A stretch of DNA of 64,000 nucleotides from the NCBI GenBank assembly GCA_016281335.1, contig JAEEIK010000044.1, forward strand, positions 1 to 64,000, read 5' to 3'. The notes under the pieces are model-generated. The model ran no database searches and was not told the DNA's origin. It was given only the letters and a program-made list of their open reading frames with translations. The position numbers and the translations under genes are program-made. Shown piece after piece: positions 3,260 through 28,152 of the stretch (position 1 is the first letter of the stretch; every line of letters begins with the position of its first letter). The DNA comes from Lachnospiraceae bacterium. GTDB taxonomy: Bacteria > Bacillota > Clostridia > Lachnospirales > Lachnospiraceae.

Positions 3260-5221
3260 TCAAAGAGTAACATGAACTATATTGCTTATAACCTCGCCGA
3301 CGTATATTCCGCCCTTGTTGATGGTAAGCCTTATTCTTAGTGTATTGTCTCCTGATCCCGGCGTTCCGACTATATTGATCGTTCCTGTCCAGTCAGATGT
3401 CAGATCCTGTGTCGAAATACTTACACCCTCAGAAGCCTCATAAAGGTCTATAACATATTCATAACCTTCGGTACAGTTTGCTAGTCTGTAACCGATCATT
3501 GCCCTGCCTTCAAAAGGATCCGGATCGATACCTGAATCTACATCTTCAAAAGAAGGAGCCGGAATAACCGTAACCGTACATGTAGCGGTCTTCCCTCCTG
3601 CTGCAGCCGTAATTACAGCAGTTCCGGGCGTACCGCCTTTGATCAGTACTGAAGTGCCTGATGACACCACAATCGCAACAGAAGAATCACTGCTTTCAAA
3701 AAGCACTTCGGCATCACTGGGATCAACCGAAACGCCGGTCTCGTTGCTGCCACCCTGTAAAATGGTCATGGAATCAACATTCCAGGACAGCGAGTTGACG
3801 GTCTTTGCACTTACGGTCACCGCACAGCTTGCGCTTGCTCCGCCTCCGTCGGCAGCCGTAGCCGTTATGGTTGCGCTGCCTGCAGCAAAAGCTTTTATGT
3901 TTCCGCTGCTGTCTACAGTGACTACAGACGTATCACTGCTTGACCAGTTTATCGTTTTATCAGTCGCATTCGAAGGTGAAATCGATACAGTGAGAGGTAT
4001 CTCATCTCCCACATTCATCTCGACAGAACTGCTCATCATTATGCTTTCAACCTTCACAACAGGATCATCCGTCGGCGTCGGATCTTCCGTCGGTGTCGGC
4101 TCATCTGTCGGTGTAGCCGTCGGAGTCGGAGTTGCTGTCGGTGTCGGTGTGTTTGAAGGCGTAGGTGTCGGCGTATTCGTCGGCGTTGCCGTGGGTTTCT
4201 TAGTCGGTGTCGGATTATTTACCGGCGTAGGCGTAGGCTCCTCTGCTTCCGGTGTCGGAGTAGGTGTCGGAACAGGAGGCGGTGTAGCCGGCCTTTGCGT
4301 CGGTGTTGCCGTAGGTGTAGGTGTCACCGAAGGCTTGGGTGTCCCCGGCTTATTGGTTGGTGTCGGAGTATTGGTAGCTGTCGGTGAAGCCGAAGGCGCA
4401 TCCGTAGGCTCCTCCTCTTCTGTCGGCGAAGGCTCCTCTGTAGGTGTAGCGGCCTTAGTCGGTGTCGGCGAAGGCAGTCCTTCCGCTATGCCTTTGATCT
4501 TATCCTTTGACCAGCCGGTTGCATCACATACTTTATCCAGCAGTTCTTCATGTTCTATCAGGTACCTTACCACTTCATCCGGCAGATCATCTTCCGTTAT
4601 ACTGAGTTTTTCAAAGGTAACGCTGTCGTCCATATTGTCGGTGTCATTACAGTAGACGTATATTATCTCGCCTTCCTCCACCGTTGTAGTCTTTTGTACT
4701 CCTGTTTCGGGATTGATGCCCACCACTTCCACTTTACCGTCGGTTATAAGTATACCGTCATGACCGTCTTTATCCACAAACACATAGCCCGAAGTACCTC
4801 TTATACCTGCGATCATGGTAGCCGTACGTATCTGAAAACTCTCATCAGCTTCCAGCTTCTTACTGACATCAAAAAACAGTGAACCTTCTTTCAGATTCAG
4901 ATCAAGATTTTTTCCGCTCTGATTGAATTCGGCAACGCTGCTTTCCTGAAGCGTAACAGCCTTATTATCATCAAGACTTATGGACGCAAGACTCTTAACT
5001 GCGGTAGACAGAACATCTCCGCTGTTAAGTTTAAGATTATCCACTATGGTTTTGGTCTTACCCTTGGATTCAAGGGTAACCGTTCCTTCAATCTTTAATA
5101 AACGCATGGTCGTAGCCGAAAGCTTATTCTTTCCGCTAAAGACCAGGATCAGAATTACGGCTGCAATAAGAATGACCGTAGCGGCGCTTCCGATTATCAA
5201 TAGTTTTTTCTTATTCTTCAT
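3260..5221 (-). CDS. FecR-domain surface protein with Pro/Thr-rich linker and Ig-like domains
   Basis: Predicted membrane-anchored extracellular protein of 653 residues. An uncleaved signal-anchor (about 6-29) follows MKNKKKL. Residues about 38-190 form a FecR domain (LLKIEGTVTLESKGK, FQIRTATMIAGIRGTSGYVF), a family that includes peptidoglycan-associated and sigma-regulatory proteins. Residues about 249-388 are a low-complexity linker of TPT and ATPTP units. Two Ig-like domains of the bacterial Big_2 type follow (about 390-470 and 475-555), then a C-terminal beta-rich region. The linker's DNA is a GTCGG-rich repeat that creates a long spurious reading frame on the other strand. Its Shine-Dalgarno, GAGGGG, is supplied by the dispersed repeat at 5228-5281. 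Substrate and partner are unknown. Confidence 0.85.
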   Translation of the reverse strand: MKNKKKLLIIGSAATVILIAAVILILVFSGKNKLSATTMRLLKIEGTVTLESKGKTKTIVDNLKLNSGDVLSTAVKSLASISLDDNKAVTLQESSVAEFNQSGKNLDLNLKEGSLFFDVSKKLEADESFQIRTATMIAGIRGTSGYVFVDKDGHDGILITDGKVEVVGINPETGVQKTTTVEEGEIIYVYCNDTDNMDDSVTFEKLSITEDDLPDEVVRYLIEHEELLDKVCDATGWSKDKIKGIAEGLPSPTPTKAATPTEEPSPTEEEEPTDAPSASPTATNTPTPTNKPGTPKPSVTPTPTATPTQRPATPPPVPTPTPTPEAEEPTPTPVNNPTPTKKPTATPTNTPTPTPSNTPTPTATPTPTATPTDEPTPTEDPTPTDDPVVKVESIMMSSSVEMNVGDEIPLTVSISPSNATDKTINWSSSDTSVVTVDSSGNIKAFAAGSATITATAADGGGASASCAVTVSAKTVNSLSWNVDSMTILQGGSNETGVSVDPSDAEVLFESSDSSVAIVVSSGTSVLIKGGTPGTAVITAAAGGKTATCTVTVIPAPSFEDVDSGIDPDPFEGRAMIGYRLANCTEGYEYVIDLYEASEGVSISTQDLTSDWTGTINIVGTPGSGDNTLRIRLTINKGGIYVGEVISNIVHVTL

Positions 5222-5227
5222 ATCTAT

Positions 5228-5281
5228 CCCCTCATCAGTCAGCCTGATTTGCTGACAGCGCTCCCCACAAAAAGGGAGAAA
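5228..5281 (-). repeat. REP-like dispersed palindromic repeat, copy B
   Basis: Two adjacent hairpins lie between the GH25-like gene and the FecR-domain gene: CTCCC/GGGGAG, and GTCAGC/GCTGAC (5251-5256 with 5238-5243). The end is GATGAGGGG. The arrangement and end sequence match the repeat at 22122-22170. Here the terminal GATGAGGGG serves as the ribosome-binding site of the next gene, 6 nt from its ATG. Confidence 0.6.
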
Positions 5282-5283
5282 TC

Positions 5284-6435
5284 TTATCTTACGCTGTAAT
5301 CAACAAAACTGATATTCATCCTGGCACCTGTTGATATACCCGGGATCTTTGCATCCAGATCATATTGCCACATCACGAATTCGTAAGGATAATCAGGTAT
5401 ATCCGCTTCTTCGGAATACCAGGTCTCATAATCTGTAAGCGAGCCAAGGCTGTATTTCTGTATCAGCGTTGCCTTGGTACCATACAGAAGAGTAAAGAAG
5501 CCTTCGGCTTCAACCTCTTTCATAAAACTGATGGCACTGTTGGTACGCGGCATTTTCTGCAGATTGTCGGTTCTGGACTTTCCTTCTCCGAGCTGCTCTG
5601 CTGACAGAGCCAGCGGATATTCAAGTGTTATGGAATTCATGCTTATGGTATCCAGACAGAATCTTGCTTCTTCCAGGCCTTCATCCGGCGTAACAGCGGC
5701 AGTCACAAAATAAGCTCCCACCTTAAGCCCTGCAGCCTTTGCCTTTTCATAATTATCCAGAAAAGCATCATCTGCATTGATCTCTCCCGAACTGTAGCCC
5801 CTCTGTCCGAGTCTCAGCATCACAAACTCAATGCCGTTTTTCTTTAAAGCATTAAAGTCAACCACTCCTTCATCTTTGGAGATATCTACGCCGGTATAAC
5901 TTTTCTTTGCTCCATTCTCATAATACAACATTAAGGGCTTTTTAAAAACCATATTTGAAAAATCATATTCATTTTTTTTGAGATACGGGTTGATATCGAC
6001 CCATTCCCCGTCATTCTCTCCGGTCTTTATAAAGGTATGATTTCCGTCCTTCGAGGGATCATCCGGATCGATCTCCTCTTCATTTTCTGTTCTGTCGGGT
6101 ATAGGGGTAGCTATAATTGCCGGATGATTACCGTCGGCATAATCATCCCAGAAATCCAGATCCTGAGCCGTAAGTTTGGAATGTCCTTCTATCACATCCA
6201 GCGGTGACGAAGTCGGCGTAACTGATGAAGCAGCAGCTTCGCGCGCTTCTCTTGCAGCCGCCGCTGCCTTTCTTTTCTTTATATTGTTCTGATTTACGAG
6301 CATAACTATAACAAGGGTAACGAGTATAAAAAAGCTTGCCACCAAAGCCGCGTTCTTTAGCGTCCCGTTGCTTTTGTGGTGTATATACTCGTCAGTTCTT
6401 TCGTCATAATCGTTGAAATCATCATCCAGCTTCAT
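5284..6435 (-). CDS. GH25 (lysozyme)-like secreted or membrane-anchored protein
   Basis: A 383-residue protein with a cytosolic N-terminus, one membrane helix (about 29-47, LKNAALVASFFILVTLVIVM) and an extracellular part. After an acidic low-complexity linker, residues about 182-383 align with GH25 muramidases: GVDISKDEGVVDF, FVMLRLGQRGY, KVGAYFVTAA, and the end motif WQYDLDAKIPGIS. The usual DxE active-site pair appears as Ser-Ala-Glu (LALSAEQ), and the Asp normally in the C-terminal VDxN motif is Arg (ARMN). Lysozyme activity is therefore doubtful; it may bind or sense cell wall. The start overlaps the YczE-like gene by 4 nt (ATGA), so the two are translationally coupled. Confidence 0.8.
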   Translation of the reverse strand: MKLDDDFNDYDERTDEYIHHKSNGTLKNAALVASFFILVTLVIVMLVNQNNIKKRKAAAAAREAREAAASSVTPTSSPLDVIEGHSKLTAQDLDFWDDYADGNHPAIIATPIPDRTENEEEIDPDDPSKDGNHTFIKTGENDGEWVDINPYLKKNEYDFSNMVFKKPLMLYYENGAKKSYTGVDISKDEGVVDFNALKKNGIEFVMLRLGQRGYSSGEINADDAFLDNYEKAKAAGLKVGAYFVTAAVTPDEGLEEARFCLDTISMNSITLEYPLALSAEQLGEGKSRTDNLQKMPRTNSAISFMKEVEAEGFFTLLYGTKATLIQKYSLGSLTDYETWYSEEADIPDYPYEFVMWQYDLDAKIPGISTGARMNISFVDYSVR

Positions 6436-14158: not shown

Positions 14159-15268
14159 TTATCTCCAAATCCATGTATGGTCTGTAGCTATAGGATTGAA
14201 GTCATCATCTGAGAATATATCTATGGTTATGCTGCCGTCTTCAAGCATCTCGCAGCTGTCAAACAGATCGTCTCCCTCTGAATCATAGAGGAATATTGCC
14301 TCTTCCATCTTTTCAACATATCCGGTATAGCTTGTAACGCCTACAGGTTCGGCCGGCCACTGGTCCTCCATATCTTCTATAAGGGTCTCCAGCCTGTCTG
14401 CCTTAAGCTCATCAACGCTGGCAAAGCCTTCTGCATCCGCCATTGCAGCCACATCCTGATACCCGTAACCTATAGCTTCCGAAAGGACTATATTGTCAAA
14501 GATGCTGTTGATATAAGTTATATAACTGTTTTTGATCTCATCATTATCGATATTGATCGTAAAAGTACCGTCTTTATTGATCGTGAATGAACTGTTGGCC
14601 ATGGGCAGATCAACGGGATCGGTCTCCAGATAATCAGCCATAATAAATGTAGCTATATCGTCCGATTCAAGATGAATATTCAAAGCGTATATTCTGGACT
14701 GTACTGCCTCGCCTGCGTCTTCTTCAAACATTTCATTCCAGTCTTCAGTCTCGTAATTTGCAGGATCATACTCGAAATCATCTTCCTCTTCCCATTCTTC
14801 ATCATCCCAGTCGTCCCAGTCTTCATCATCCCAGTCTTCCAAGTCTTCTTCAGCAGCCTCTCTGGCCTCTTCCTCTTCCCAGTATTTATCCCAGGCTTTG
14901 TCGGTATTCTTTGCGACAATTATGCGTAATCTTACAGTAGGAGCATAGCTTGCATAGAAAGTAATAAGTCTTTCGCCTTCTGCCTTTGCAATTACCGTAT
15001 ATTCATATTCCCCACCGGGGATGATATCAGCCACTTCGGTATTATTCTTATCTATCTGAACCTTGAGGTTCTTCAGGCAGTCGAAATTATCTACAGTTAA
15101 CACCTCTTCCTCTCCGGGTTCAAGTATAAGCACATCATCGGATAAGTAGATCTCATCATCCCATTCAAGATCCTCAAACGGCTCACCTCCGCAGGCTGCA
15201 AGCATCCCGCAGAGCATCACGCATATGGCAAGCAAGAATAATCTTTTGCCGTTTATCAGTTTAAACAT
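14159..15268 (-). CDS. Lipoprotein with an acidic, Trp-rich linker
   Basis: Predicted lipoprotein of 369 residues; the signal peptide ends in the lipobox LAAC (Cys 26 of the chosen start). An Ig-like or beta region is followed by a strongly acidic stretch with repeating D-W and E-D units (around residues 130-170, for example EDWDDEDWDDWDDEEWEEED), then a globular C-terminal domain of unknown family. I use ATG 15268 because AGGAG lies 8 nt before it. A GTG three codons upstream sits inside that Shine-Dalgarno and is less likely. Function unknown; it probably sits on the outer face of the membrane. Confidence 0.8.
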   Translation of the reverse strand: MFKLINGKRLFLLAICVMLCGMLAACGGEPFEDLEWDDEIYLSDDVLILEPGEEEVLTVDNFDCLKNLKVQIDKNNTEVADIIPGGEYEYTVIAKAEGERLITFYASYAPTVRLRIIVAKNTDKAWDKYWEEEEAREAAEEDLEDWDDEDWDDWDDEEWEEEDDFEYDPANYETEDWNEMFEEDAGEAVQSRIYALNIHLESDDIATFIMADYLETDPVDLPMANSSFTINKDGTFTINIDNDEIKNSYITYINSIFDNIVLSEAIGYGYQDVAAMADAEGFASVDELKADRLETLIEDMEDQWPAEPVGVTSYTGYVEKMEEAIFLYDSEGDDLFDSCEMLEDGSITIDIFSDDDFNPIATDHTWIWR

Positions 15269-15304
15269 AACAGTCACTCCTTTATTTCAATGTATCTTTC
15301 ATCT

Positions 15305-23127: not shown

Positions 23128-26100
23128 TTATTTGATCTTAAAGCTTCCCTTTGCCGCTCCGGCATATTTCCCTTTTCCGAAAACAGCCACAACAGCCTTT
23201 CCGCTCATCAGGTTATTGTAATACTTTATCTCATACGCATCCCCGTGTATCAGTGTCTTCTTGAGCAGCACTTCGGTTTTTCCGGGGATCAGCTTTTCGC
23301 CGCTGAAACTTAAGGCCTTGGCCGGTTTATTGTCATTTTCCTTAGCGTAGATCTTGATCTTCGATGCTGACATATCAGTTACGCCTGCATCTGCGGAATA
23401 TATTGTCACATCCTTGATTATCGTTCCTTCGGCATAGTTTATACCCCGGCTCTTTATCTCCAGCTGCGCCTTTGCGCTCTTTGCCCCCATTAACTCAGGC
23501 TTATTGTTCTTAACTTCTGCGCCGTTAAGTTTCAGACTGACGGTATACTGTGATGCATCAAGGAGTGTTCCGTCTTCATCAACATATACCTTCAGATTTA
23601 TCTTTCCTTTTTTAGAGCAGATCATGTCAGCGGCATTTACACTGATGCACTCTTCGTTAAACGGCGCCTTCTCTATCTTATAACCCAGGTTCTTTATCGC
23701 CGCGCAGCCGGCATAATTGCCTATGAACTTTATGCTGTAGGCTGCATCACCGGCACTGTTTTTCTTAGGAAAGCTTATCTTATAATCGCGTCCCGCATAG
23801 AGTTTTCTTCCGGCGAAGTTAAGGCTTACTGCAGGTCTCGAGCCGTCAGCCTTGTAAATAAGCTTTTCCACAGATGTCTCCACTTTAGGTTTGGCGCTTT
23901 TATCTGCTACGATCTTAAAAGTCTTTGTTATTGCTCCGATATAATCACCTCTGCCGGCGATGGATACCCTTGCCTTTCCGACATTGACATTATTGCTGTA
24001 GTAGATTTCATAATCCTTATGAAGTACCAGTTCATGATCTAAACTCGTTACATGGATATACTGATCTATCTTCTTTTCCTTCCCGTCATACATAAGCTTA
24101 TCAAACTTATCCAGCTTAACACTTATATCCAGACCGCCCACGCCTATGGATGCTTCGAGCGTCTTCTTACTGCCTGCGAAGTTACCGAGACCGATAAGAG
24201 CAAGTTCTTCCCTTGTATTCTCCAGCTTAAAATCCTTGTTTTTAAGTTTGATACCGTTATAAAAGACAGCAGTCGTAACCTTAGCTTTTTTCTCCCTAAT
24301 CACGTCAGAAGTAACCGCATCGGCAATATCCGCTGTTTTAATATAGAACTCCTGTACATATTTAAATCTGTACATTCCCTTACCGCTGATAACTGCCTTT
24401 GCGCAGTTGCCATCGGAACTTGCATTTTTATTATTCTTATATTTCACCGTGTAATCCGTTCCTTCATACAGTTCCCGGCCTTTGTACACTACCTTCACCA
24501 CCGGCTTTATGGTGCTTCCGGTATATGTGGTCTCATACCTCTTGCTTACTGTATTGTAGGATACGATATCCATTCCCTTGTCGGCTATATCCGTTACAAA
24601 GCCAAAGCTGATGCCGCTGATATCCTCTACTACCGTCTCATTTTTGCTCACTGTATCGTCGCTGATACTGTCTTTGTTATCCGGTGTCTTCGGCTCTCCG
24701 TCACCCTCTGTATTTGTTTCTTCTTTTTTCTGCTCTTCCTGTTCCTCTTTTTTCTGCTCCTCTGTCTTCTCGTATATCTCAAACGTAAGCGTCTTTATTC
24801 CTGTATAATCTCCTATACCGTACAGGCTCACGCTTGCAGTGCCGATCTCGGTATTATCACTGTAGATGCAGACATAGTCGTTATACGGTACAAGTACGGT
24901 ATCCCCGTCTTTAACACTGATCTCCGGAGTTTTTGCGCTTCCGTCATAAACGATCTTCTCGGAATATACAAAATCTAATGTCTCTATATTCTTTCCACCC
25001 TCCTGGACATTTCCGTTAGCACTAACAGAGGAAATATCAAGGTTTTCTACAACAAGCCCCTTCTCGCCTTTGGAGATAAAGCTTCCCTCCAAAGCTCCGT
25101 TTCCTTTTCCTGCAACGGTCACCACTGCATTATTGCTCTTAAGCTCCGCGCTTATGTCCTCATCATCATTAAGCGGAATTCTCAGTTCATTGATGTTATT
25201 TTTTTCATCGAGTTTTACACTTACACTCTTGGAATCGCTTTCCACTTTCTGTGCTAAGGCTCCATCCGTAAGAGTATAGGCAAGCGCTTTATTGGAACTG
25301 ATAATGCTTAAAGCTTCGGTACTCATAAACCTGATGTTTTCGGAAGCCTTAGCTTTATCGATAAGTTTCAGATCCACGGTTTCAAAGCCCCGGTCTTCCT
25401 CTGCAGTGCTGTTTGCAACACCGTTCACATACTCAAACAGGCTGTTGCCCTCGTCATCTTTTATGATGATATCCGCAACTTCTCCGTTAGCCAGTTTGCA
25501 GCGCATTTTACAACGCATCTTGCAGCGCATTTTGCAACGCATCTTGCAGCGCATTTTGCAGCGCATCTTGCAGCGCATCTTACAGCGCATTTTACATCTC
25601 ATCTTGCAACGCATCTTGCAGCGCATGCTCATGCCTGAAGGTGCTTTCGGATAAGTCACCATGTATTTTTCAAGTTCCTCATCATCTGAAGCATCCCAGT
25701 CAGAAAGATCCATATCACCAGGATGATCTTTAATATATTGCTCTTCATCGGCATCCCATTCCATATAAGTGGTATAGAACTCTTCATCCGCATCGGTCCA
25801 GCCAAGCATCTCCTTGCAGCGCATCTTGCAGCGCATTTTACAGCGCATCTTACAGCGCATGTCCATATCATCGGGGGCCTTGGGATAAGTCAGCATATAT
25901 TTCTGCAGCTGGATATCATCATCCGCATTCCAGTCGCTTATATCATCAGCCCCGGGATTTTCCGCAAGAAACGCTTTTTCCTCCTCGGTGAAATCCATAT
26001 AATAAGTGAAGAATTCTTCATCTTCAGCCGTCCATCCGTTTGTTCCGTCAAAAGGATTCCAGCTCTCCGGGTCAAAATATCCTCCGTCGTTCCATGGCGC

Positions 26101-28152
26101 CGAGTAAATGTCATAGGGAACAAAGCTTATGGCACATCCCGCATAAGCGCTTCCCCAGACTATGGCAGTCTTTCCGTTTCCTGCCGCTCTTATCGTATAC
26201 TCCCAGTTATTGCAGAATTCTTTATCGGTTTCAGTAAGTGTGCTTTCAGCCGATACTTCTATATATTTTTCAACCTTCGGATAGTTCGGATCATAAATAC
26301 CTATACGTTTTGCGCCGGCAACATTTGAACTGACCACTTCAAAGCCAAGCACGGCGTGGCCGCCCTCAGGTCCGAAGAGTCCGATCAGTACCGGCTTCTT
26401 GGAATCTTCCAGTTCAGTGATTATTTCGGTGGGAGTTGCGGGAAATGACAGGCAGTACTGTACTCTCTCATCATACTGGGATATCTGAAGGGCCTCGATA
26501 AATTTCCTCAGATCTGACGTTAACTGCGCCCTGGTATCATCCGTGGGATCGGTATCTACCGCAGCAGGTAGCCACAGGTCCTGAACTCTTATGGCAGCCG
26601 GATCAAAATCAACGATGTCCGGATTCGATGTCTGACCGCTTAACATGGCCGCACTGGAAGTCATGCCATAGCAGCTTCCTCCCCACTCATCATCAAAGAA
26701 CTCAAAGATCTCTTCGCCGCGCTCACCGAAGACTTCCTTATATCTTTCCACAGGGATATGATAATTCCAGGACTCATCATAGCCCAGATTCTCCCTGTCC
26801 TGCTGTTTAAAATTATTCTCAAATGAATAAGTCAGATCATCAAAAACATAATCCCCCGGATACGGAATAGGCTTCGACAGATCAGCCTGCTCCCAGATAA
26901 ACCTGTCGCTGCCGACATAGCTGTGAAGAGCTTCCCATTCTGTTTCCGTACCTGCATAATATACACGTTCAAGATTGGTTATTGTTACATTCATATTCGT
27001 CGGAAACTGTTGGGGCAGGCCGAGATATTGGATCGAAGAACGGTAGAACATATCTGTTGTGGTGGACCCGCCTACTATACTGAGGCCTCTCATATCGAGT
27101 CTTTTAAGACTTGTGCATTCATAAAACATCCCGGTAAAATTGATTGAGGACATAGTCGTGAAACTTCTCAGGTCCAGATCGGTAAGAGAAGAACAGGAAT
27201 CAAACATATTCGACATATCCGCACAAACCCAGGTATCAAATCTGCTCAGGTCAAGTTCCTCTAATTCCCGGCAGTTTGTGAACATTCCTGCCATGCTTGT
27301 CACACCTGAAGTATTGAAACTTGACAGATTTATTTTTTTCAGGGAACTGCAACCTTTAAACATATCATACATATGCTGTGTAGTTGTAGTATTAAATGAC
27401 GAAAGATCAAGTTCAACAAGGGATGAACAGTAATAAAACATGCCATTCATCCATATGACCTGTTCAGTATTAAAACTACTGAGATCCAGGCTGGTTAGTG
27501 AGGAGCAGCCGCTGAACATATCCTGCATTTGAATAACTGATGACGTATTCATTTTGCTGATATCAAGATATTCAAGCTTACTGCAGCCCTCAAACATAGA
27601 GTTCATATTGCTCACATTGGACGTATCCGCGCTCATTATAAGTGTTTCCAGCTTATCATTGCCAAAGAACAAAGAGTGCATATCCTGCACACATCCGACA
27701 CCTTCAGCAATCTTTAATGCTTTGACAGGTGTCTCTGCAAGGCCGGTAAGCGCGGCAGTATCAAGGATTATCTCATAATCTTCAGGTGCAGCAAGTTTAG
27801 CGGGTATCAACAATTCCTCAGGAAACTCGGCCTTTTTGTCATCATCATCAACTATACCGTAAATTCTGATAGCATAACCATTATTGCCCATCTGCTGCGT
27901 ATATTCAAAATGACTCAGATACCAGTCATTATCCATCGCAGTGAAGCTAATGCCGTTATCCGGTTCATACTGTGCTTCTTCGGTCACATCTTCTTCGTCT
28001 TTTTCTATCGTTTCTTTCTCATCTTCAATTATTTCTTCTGTATTATTTTCAAATACGGAATAAGCATCCCCGGCAGCCTCTGCATACCCCTGCAGACTTC
28101 CCGTAAACAAGACTATGCTCATAAAAAAAGCAATAACTCTGTTCATCTTCAT
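23128..28152 (-). CDS. Very large secreted protein: BspA-like LRRs, papain-like domain, Met-Arg-Cys-Lys arrays, Ig-like repeats
   Basis: A 1674-residue protein. A signal peptide (cleavage near AEA-A, residue 26) is followed by an acidic linker. Residues about 165-390 hold DUF285/BspA-type leucine-rich repeats (MFxxCSSLxxLDLSSFNT units). Residues about 460-690 look like a papain-fold cysteine peptidase: C494 in WGGSCYGMTSSAAML, H599 in GGHAVLGFEV, then YDPNYP. Two 59-residue acidic modules (706-764, 784-842) each end in an array of Met-Arg-Cys-Lys: four copies (765-780) and eleven (843-886). The remainder is beta-rich Ig-like repeats (for example LYEGTDYTVKYKNN, GKGMYRF). No sortase motif or C-terminal anchor is seen. 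Function unknown; the LRR and Ig parts suggest an adhesin or surface protein. A good Shine-Dalgarno (AAAGGAG) precedes ATG 28152. Confidence 0.9.
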   Translation of the reverse strand: MKMNRVIAFFMSIVLFTGSLQGYAEAAGDAYSVFENNTEEIIEDEKETIEKDEEDVTEEAQYEPDNGISFTAMDNDWYLSHFEYTQQMGNNGYAIRIYGIVDDDDKKAEFPEELLIPAKLAAPEDYEIILDTAALTGLAETPVKALKIAEGVGCVQDMHSLFFGNDKLETLIMSADTSNVSNMNSMFEGCSKLEYLDISKMNTSSVIQMQDMFSGCSSLTSLDLSSFNTEQVIWMNGMFYYCSSLVELDLSSFNTTTTQHMYDMFKGCSSLKKINLSSFNTSGVTSMAGMFTNCRELEELDLSRFDTWVCADMSNMFDSCSSLTDLDLRSFTTMSSINFTGMFYECTSLKRLDMRGLSIVGGSTTTDMFYRSSIQYLGLPQQFPTNMNVTITNLERVYYAGTETEWEALHSYVGSDRFIWEQADLSKPIPYPGDYVFDDLTYSFENNFKQQDRENLGYDESWNYHIPVERYKEVFGERGEEIFEFFDDEWGGSCYGMTSSAAMLSGQTSNPDIVDFDPAAIRVQDLWLPAAVDTDPTDDTRAQLTSDLRKFIEALQISQYDERVQYCLSFPATPTEIITELEDSKKPVLIGLFGPEGGHAVLGFEVVSSNVAGAKRIGIYDPNYPKVEKYIEVSAESTLTETDKEFCNNWEYTIRAAGNGKTAIVWGSAYAGCAISFVPYDIYSAPWNDGGYFDPESWNPFDGTNGWTAEDEEFFTYYMDFTEEEKAFLAENPGADDISDWNADDDIQLQKYMLTYPKAPDDMDMRCKMRCKMRCKMRCKEMLGWTDADEEFYTTYMEWDADEEQYIKDHPGDMDLSDWDASDDEELEKYMVTYPKAPSGMSMRCKMRCKMRCKMRCKMRCKMRCKMRCKMRCKMRCKMRCKMRCKLANGEVADIIIKDDEGNSLFEYVNGVANSTAEEDRGFETVDLKLIDKAKASENIRFMSTEALSIISSNKALAYTLTDGALAQKVESDSKSVSVKLDEKNNINELRIPLNDDEDISAELKSNNAVVTVAGKGNGALEGSFISKGEKGLVVENLDISSVSANGNVQEGGKNIETLDFVYSEKIVYDGSAKTPEISVKDGDTVLVPYNDYVCIYSDNTEIGTASVSLYGIGDYTGIKTLTFEIYEKTEEQKKEEQEEQKKEETNTEGDGEPKTPDNKDSISDDTVSKNETVVEDISGISFGFVTDIADKGMDIVSYNTVSKRYETTYTGSTIKPVVKVVYKGRELYEGTDYTVKYKNNKNASSDGNCAKAVISGKGMYRFKYVQEFYIKTADIADAVTSDVIREKKAKVTTAVFYNGIKLKNKDFKLENTREELALIGLGNFAGSKKTLEASIGVGGLDISVKLDKFDKLMYDGKEKKIDQYIHVTSLDHELVLHKDYEIYYSNNVNVGKARVSIAGRGDYIGAITKTFKIVADKSAKPKVETSVEKLIYKADGSRPAVSLNFAGRKLYAGRDYKISFPKKNSAGDAAYSIKFIGNYAGCAAIKNLGYKIEKAPFNEECISVNAADMICSKKGKINLKVYVDEDGTLLDASQYTVSLKLNGAEVKNNKPELMGAKSAKAQLEIKSRGINYAEGTIIKDVTIYSADAGVTDMSASKIKIYAKENDNKPAKALSFSGEKLIPGKTEVLLKKTLIHGDAYEIKYYNNLMSGKAVVAVFGKGKYAGAAKGSFKIK
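25495..25626 (-). repeat. Array 2: eleven 12-bp repeats encoding Met-Arg-Cys-Lys
   Basis: Eleven uninterrupted 12-bp units, each encoding Met-Arg-Cys-Lys (protein residues 843-886). The units differ only at synonymous positions: Arg is CGC, CGT or AGA; Cys is TGC or TGT; Lys is AAA or AAG. No unit has an amino-acid change, which suggests selection on the peptide rather than recent slippage alone. Confidence 0.97.
25813..25860 (-). repeat. Array 1: four 12-bp repeats encoding Met-Arg-Cys-Lys
   Basis: Four units encoding Met-Arg-Cys-Lys (protein residues 765-780), at the end of the first acidic module. Only synonymous variation is present. The array is followed by Glu-Met-Leu and the second module. 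Confidence 0.97.

Follow-up and report, generated by a model that had tools for sequence, protein, structure and literature searches.

The stretch of DNA analysed here (the window, 64,000 nucleotides in length) carries on its reverse strand the gene of a large secreted surface-type protein, which is laid out as follows.

23128..28152, reverse strand: whole gene, secreted surface-type protein of 1674 amino acids (open reading frame and translation)
28072..28152, reverse strand: N-terminal signal peptide, first 27 amino acids, end approximate (translation inspected)
27100..27696, reverse strand: BspA-type leucine-rich/DUF285 (PARCEL) repeats, borders approximate (PF03382, E 4.4e-38; TIGR02167, E 7.8e-34)
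26092..26829, reverse strand: cysteine-peptidase-like domain with the motifs GGSCYG, GGHAVL and YDPNYP (alignment of 11 rows)
25861..26091, reverse strand: acidic module 1, 77 amino acids, net charge -19 (charge count, module profile)
25813..25860, reverse strand: array 1, (MRCK)4, net charge +8 (translation)
25627..25803, reverse strand: acidic module 2, starting with GWTDADEEF, 59 amino acids, 53% identical to module 1 (pairwise comparison, module profile)
25495..25626, reverse strand: array 2, (MRCK)11, net charge +22 (translation)
25009..25494, reverse strand: post-array domain, borders approximate (alignment)
23131..24975, reverse strand: C-terminal beta-type repeats, Ig/MBG-like by appearance (judged from the translation)

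The signal peptide, recognised by inspection of the translation, agrees with an earlier note on this DNA that described the protein as secreted. With 130.1 bits against PF03382 (cutoff 25) and 114.9 bits against TIGR02167 (cutoff 30), the protein belongs to the BspA-type LRR/DUF285 (PARCEL) surface proteins, with which it also shares the signal peptide. However, the peptidase-like domain and the acidic and basic segments fall outside those models, and the homologues of G052 and G453a have these segments without an LRR region. Compared to Pfam, the C-terminal repeats gave DUF2807 as sole match, below the cutoff of that family.

The peptidase-like domain resembles papain-like cysteine peptidases (C39 and C70 types) in its ordered GxCxG, GH and YDxNxP motifs, invariant in 11 aligned rows. 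Cys494, His599 and Asp621 are likewise invariant in these rows (in within-domain numbering, C53, H158, D180 and N182). Unlike those peptidases, the domain finds no significant match in Pfam: none of the 11 rows gave one (the best matches being Imm2 with E 0.095 and Peptidase_C70 with E 0.15, each in one row of the 11), and the whole window protein has no significant match to a peptidase family. A PDB match to Glr1262 (E 1.7e-4) was discarded, as it is limited to residues ahead of and around the Cys motif and does not take in the cysteine itself.

Between the peptidase-like and the post-array domain, four and eleven MRCK units lie in frame within the single open reading frame of 1674 amino acids. 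All 15 encode the same tetrapeptide with differing synonymous codons (CGC/CGT/AGA, TGC/TGT, AAA/AAG). Each array is preceded by its own acidic module, module and array having been duplicated together, and the kinship of the two modules that had been pointed out before is confirmed by 53% identity over 58 amino acids. The interval 25495..25860, to which the earlier note assigned both modules, does include module 2 but leaves module 1 (26091-25861) just outside. Acidic module and array form one cassette, inserted between the peptidase-like and post-array domains of a secreted BspA-type protein.

These arrays are no artefact of the assembly of the window, because the same genome (G000) encodes two tandem paralogues (L009) on another contig (C127) and related arrays occur in seven other genomes. 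The paralogues, of 1601 and 1697 amino acids, whose arrays were located by a pattern search, have 11 array units each, and one of the two arrays includes a single IRCK and a single VRCK. Three or more consecutive MRCK units, for which the earlier note had suggested a search, were found in 1 of 397 sampled genomes of the family, the window's own. In total, arrays are present at the equivalent place in 12 proteins of eight genomes from two genera of Lachnospiraceae (5 of 35 genomes of the window's genus, 3 of 4 listed genomes of the second genus); the genome samples were drawn rather than exhaustive, and several relatives are incomplete genomes. The repeat unit differs from genome to genome: MRCK in all three proteins of G000, SRCK in nine copies in both proteins of G402, nine VRCK in G418, WRCKSYCRWRCKGRLNWRCKGRLNWRCK in G424, five GRCRLR in G422, eight LRCR in G052, eight LRCK and twelve FRMR in the two proteins of G453, and eight VKCR in G454. 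The array of G424 is thus WRCK-based with a partly eight-residue unit (WRCKGRLN), that of G422 has a six-residue unit, and (FRMR)12 (L261, G453) is devoid of cysteine in all 12 units. In a tree of eight proteins the VRCK protein of G418 falls within a supported group (97/99) together with the three MRCK proteins.

The distribution of the neighbouring domains sheds light on the origin of the cassette. With the peptidase-like region plus module 1 as query, 6 of 60 relatives were matched. A profile of the peptidase-like domain matched 6 of 35 genomes of the window's genus (E <= 1e-8), 16 of 397 genomes of the family (E <= 1e-5), 3 of 116 relatives of G052 (E <= 1e-30) and, among 398 genomes of the phylum, the window's own only (E <= 1e-10). 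Two proteins encoded by G397 combine the peptidase-like domain with what by eye is the post-array domain, but have neither module nor array; the acidic-module profile found no match in this genome (E <= 0.01). Alternating runs of at least five dipeptides, the pattern described below, are absent from the loci of these two proteins and of 18 more distant peptidase-domain matches in 14 genomes, and a weak third match in G402 (contig C51, E 6.4e-10, L232) also lacks an array. By eye, a stretch like the post-array domain directly follows the peptidase-like domain in cassette-free homologues (L025, L028, L234). Since these homologues keep the peptidase-like domain without the cassette, the latter looks like a unit added onto an older architecture. 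A broad scan of genome contigs for xRCK repeats gave at least 116 stretches. Among the matches listed, only L093 and L117 were judged by eye to be array proteins of this family, most of the others looking by eye like out-of-frame or unrelated repeats. On viral contigs a shorter pattern gave 75 stretches, none of which was judged a relative by eye, and a peptidase-domain scan gave 16 pattern matches without a relative among them. As a separate observation, MRCK/MRCR-like runs (MRCRMRCRMRCKMRCK; VRCKMRCKMRCKMRCK) occur in short open reading frames, at best putative genes, at the loci L188 (viral contig, 55 codons) and L113 (Enterobacterales MAG, 233 codons).

What the diverse units have in common is a period of two. 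When the 13 arrays of the 12 proteins are read in a register of two residues, Arg or Lys stands at 226 of the 229 even positions, the exceptions (two Asn and one Tyr) all belonging to G424, and not one of the 229 odd positions is charged. The odd positions are occupied by 98 Cys, 47 Met, 23 Leu, 19 Ser, 18 Val, 12 Phe, 7 Gly, 4 Trp and 1 Ile. Outside the array family, runs of at least five such dipeptides (uncharged, then basic) were not found in open reading frames of at least 300 amino acids in the window and the whole-genome loci scanned (L001-L030 and L222 upward, L031-L221 being left out), a threshold below which the G424 array itself falls, interrupted as it is by Tyr and Asn. A 36-residue VRCK query against seven genomes revealed no clear array beyond the known array proteins, the remaining matches having E values of 0.02 or worse, and the GRCRLR array of G422 went undetected with this query. 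A profile of the alternation matched 4 of 397 family genomes (G000, G052, G002 and G196), of which G002 and G196 were dropped as readings in other frames over other open reading frames.

The earlier note had placed a cysteine at every fourth residue along one face of a helix and proposed that the thiols bind metal, form disulphide ladders or are modified. The helical thiol face does not survive as the essence of the array in view of (FRMR)12, which has no cysteine, the six-residue GRCRLR unit and the partly eight-residue WRCKGRLN unit; the two-residue alternation suggests an extended strand rather than a stripe on a helix. Homologues that freely lose the cysteine had been named there as refuting evidence, and the outcome is divided: one protein of the 12 has lost it in all 12 units, but within any one array Cys is constant. 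A thiol-based device draws on the retention of Cys in 11 of 12 proteins and at 98 of 229 odd positions. However, a metallothionein-like chelator or a disulphide ladder, for which Cys is indispensable, does not fit (FRMR)12 of L261. Moreover, the spacing of the cysteines is four in most arrays but six in GRCRLR and four to eight in G424, and inspection of the regions read showed no dedicated maturation enzyme encoded next to the array genes. An open reading frame about 4 kb from the array gene of G424 resembles the methylthiotransferase RimO, which we take to be a housekeeping enzyme. We therefore consider a thiol device as the main function rather unlikely. Because it is kept in 11 of the 12 proteins, cysteine probably helps the array, but it cannot be its essence.

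The second element of the cassette, the acidic module, is tied to the array. A profile built from 13 modules gave 14 matches in the nine genomes searched, including those 13, and all of them lie inside the 12 array proteins (E <= 0.01), so that the informative result is the absence of matches elsewhere. The modules are rich in tryptophan and contain recurring W-T-x-x-D/E-E motifs, which may form short capped helices. Their charge mirrors that of the arrays: the acidic region has a net charge of -17 to -22 in ten proteins, -34 in G453b and -36 in the window protein (both modules), the arrays range from +11 to +30, and the sums of module and array lie between -10 and +4 (n = 12). Module and array charges are correlated with r = -0.77 (one-sided permutation p 0.006) over 12 related and thus non-independent proteins, and with r = -0.54 (p 0.043) when the window protein is omitted, whereas no such correlation is seen for the peptidase region (r = 0.08) or the post-array region (r = -0.03) (n = 12). 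The match in the window protein holds for the total (-6), yet array 1 (+8) fails to balance module 1 (-19).

Selection on the peptide, which the earlier note had deduced from the window alone, is evident throughout the family. In 12 arrays, differences within an array amount to 133 synonymous versus 2 non-synonymous, both of the latter on the first residue of the unit. The count comprises 105 units in 12 arrays of 11 proteins, each compared with the consensus of its own array, G424 being excluded for its irregular unit. Counted as distinct codon changes the ratio is 53 to 2, with a binomial p of about 2e-24 against at most 32% synonymous changes expected (transition weight 3), a value that is optimistic because related arrays share some changes. 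The main alternative at this level is that a 12-base DNA repeat expanded neutrally and that the encoded peptide has no function. Tandem DNA repeats are indeed detected, with higher-order periods of 24 and 36 bases in the paralogues, which makes slippage or block duplication the probable origin of the arrays, and the excess of CGC codons in most of them may be a trace of a common origin or of codon choice. The synonymous excess in both counts, 133 to 2 and 53 to 2, nevertheless contradicts a repeat that acts at the DNA level alone, and we hold this explanation to be extremely improbable. Two further features of codon usage were observed. Both arrays of G402 (L022, L027) mix the serine codons AGC and TCN within one array, which requires two-step changes while the peptide stays identical. 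In the arrays of the window, L009, L021, L022, L027 and L093, CGC takes a larger share of the Arg codons than in the remainder of each gene, which commonly uses AGA/AGG or CGT. G052 departs from this bias, its LRCR array being written mostly with AGA and CGT.

Based on these properties, we propose that the cassette is a charge-compensated pair of polycation and polyanion, which would serve electrostatic masking or association on a BspA-type surface protein; we put this forward tentatively, at somewhat less than an even chance. The array would act as a polycation, with Arg or Lys at every second position and uncharged residues (Cys, Met, Leu, Val, Ser, Phe, Gly or Trp) in between. If it is extended, its charges would lie on one face and its thiol or hydrophobic groups on the opposite one. 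In an extended strand with such alternation, like charges are about 7 angstrom apart, close to the phosphate spacing of many polyanions. Alternation and spacing together lead us to propose masking followed by exchange: the acidic tryptophan-rich module, with its roughly matching negative charge, would bind the array electrostatically within or between molecules and mask the polycation during secretion, after which the array could be handed over to polyanions outside the cell (teichoic acid, extracellular DNA or sulphated glycans) or to the acidic modules of neighbouring molecules. Cysteines, where present, might add disulphide locking as an accessory. The cassette thus looks like an undescribed electrostatic binding module. 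A related idea, which we regard as possible but not likely, is a natural bacterial polyelectrolyte glue, in which secreted proteins, each with a matched polyanion and polycation of its own, would assemble by complex coacervation, with the thiols as optional curing groups.

The electrostatic reading leaves several features unexplained. The near-perfect identity of units within an array is stricter than electrostatics alone should need, and a purely electrostatic role accounts neither for the retention of Cys in 11 of 12 proteins, with its constancy within arrays, nor for uncharged residues that are identical within an array and switch together between relatives. The repeat word is the same throughout a protein and is replaced wholesale between relatives, as if read by a co-evolving partner. 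The identity of the uncharged residues within an array and their joint switch between relatives are better explained by a multicopy precursor, from which the peptidase-like domain in cis or an outside trypsin-like protease would free identical short peptides (MRCK, VRCK, SRCK) as a species-specific signal taken up by an oligopeptide permease. Multicopy pheromone precursors such as that of yeast alpha-factor likewise contain identical units that change between relatives. The units are identical within a protein despite differing synonymous codons, and all but GRLN in G424 have a basic residue at their end. In four of the eight array-bearing genomes (G052, G453, G454 and G402), an operon for an oligopeptide permease adjoins an array gene. 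However, there is no spacer or cleavage signal beyond the unit itself, basic residues being found inside the units as well as at their ends, and such a precursor leaves the matching acidic module unexplained, so that it accounts for the charge match less well than the electrostatic reading does.

The gene neighbourhood is of limited help in this respect. No permease genes turned up in the regions read around the arrays of G000, G418, G422 and G424, and G415, which has no array gene, carries a more distant HD-domain paralogue (41-43% identical) adjoining an OppA gene. The neighbourhood is therefore not specific to arrays and we give it little weight; overall, a peptide precursor appears improbable to us. 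The HD-domain gene (Pfam HD) itself lies beside or near an array gene in six of the eight genomes (G402, G422, G424, G052, G453 and G454), with one gene in between in G402 and near only one of the two array genes in G453. Within the window's genus, each of the five genomes with arrays contains full-length matches above 50% identity to its product, which the other 30 genomes lack, with C-terminal matches of 51-52% in G426 and G398, a confinement that may be explained by shared descent. This protein of about 640 amino acids belongs to an expanded paralogous family in the window's genus (L254, 8232-10154; L255, 5569-7488; L256, 7353-9263). Around the array genes on contig C127 of G000 and in G418 lie genes that by eye look like those of a penicillin-binding protein, RodA, DacF and GpsA.

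A membrane-active or antimicrobial polycation, held harmless by its acidic propiece as in defensin precursors, would in turn account for the charge-matched acidic partner and for the alternation of basic with uncharged, often hydrophobic residues. Ser and Gly at the uncharged positions of some arrays weaken such a hydrophobic face, though, and the array is located mid-protein between domains, with no known release site, which makes this function doubtful in our eyes.

The electrostatic reading finds partial parallels in known systems. Cys-containing protamines combine an Arg-rich chain with cysteine, and in charge-balanced propeptides an acidic partner neutralises a cationic segment. Unlike these, the arrays have a strict two-residue alternation and identical units within a secreted bacterial protein, and they are not known to be related to them in sequence. 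Designed ionic self-complementary peptides and alternating Val-Lys beta-strand peptides alternate uncharged and charged residues in a similar way, whereas the arrays are natural, embedded in a large protein and paired with a separate acidic module, with a length of 14 to 24 dipeptides for the main arrays and 8 for the short array of the window. The earlier statement that no family with this repeat has been described is in line with a literature search, in which six of the repeat strings matched one unrelated electronics paper only. Within the scope of a search for the acidic/basic cassette, outside of which lie preprints and most subscription journals, no description was found either. To our knowledge, few natural proteins preserve 8 to 12 identical short units under selection as clear as this, with a different unit in each relative. 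As a test system the cassette is clean: its acidic and basic parts are matched, its uncharged residues have been exchanged in nature, in one case with loss of Cys, and homologues without the cassette can serve as controls. If module and array do bind, gut-type Lachnospiraceae would have a means, not described so far, of linking secreted proteins to each other or to polyanions outside the cell.

Two other genes on the reverse strand of the window deserve mention. A putative lipoprotein with a LAACGG lipobox-like motif (14162-15286) contains a Trp/Asp/Glu stretch, DWDDEDWDDWDDEEWEEEDDFEYD, and thus another acidic tryptophan-rich segment, and a protein that looks FecR-like by eye (3263-5299) has a long Thr-Pro-rich linker followed by Ig-like repeats.
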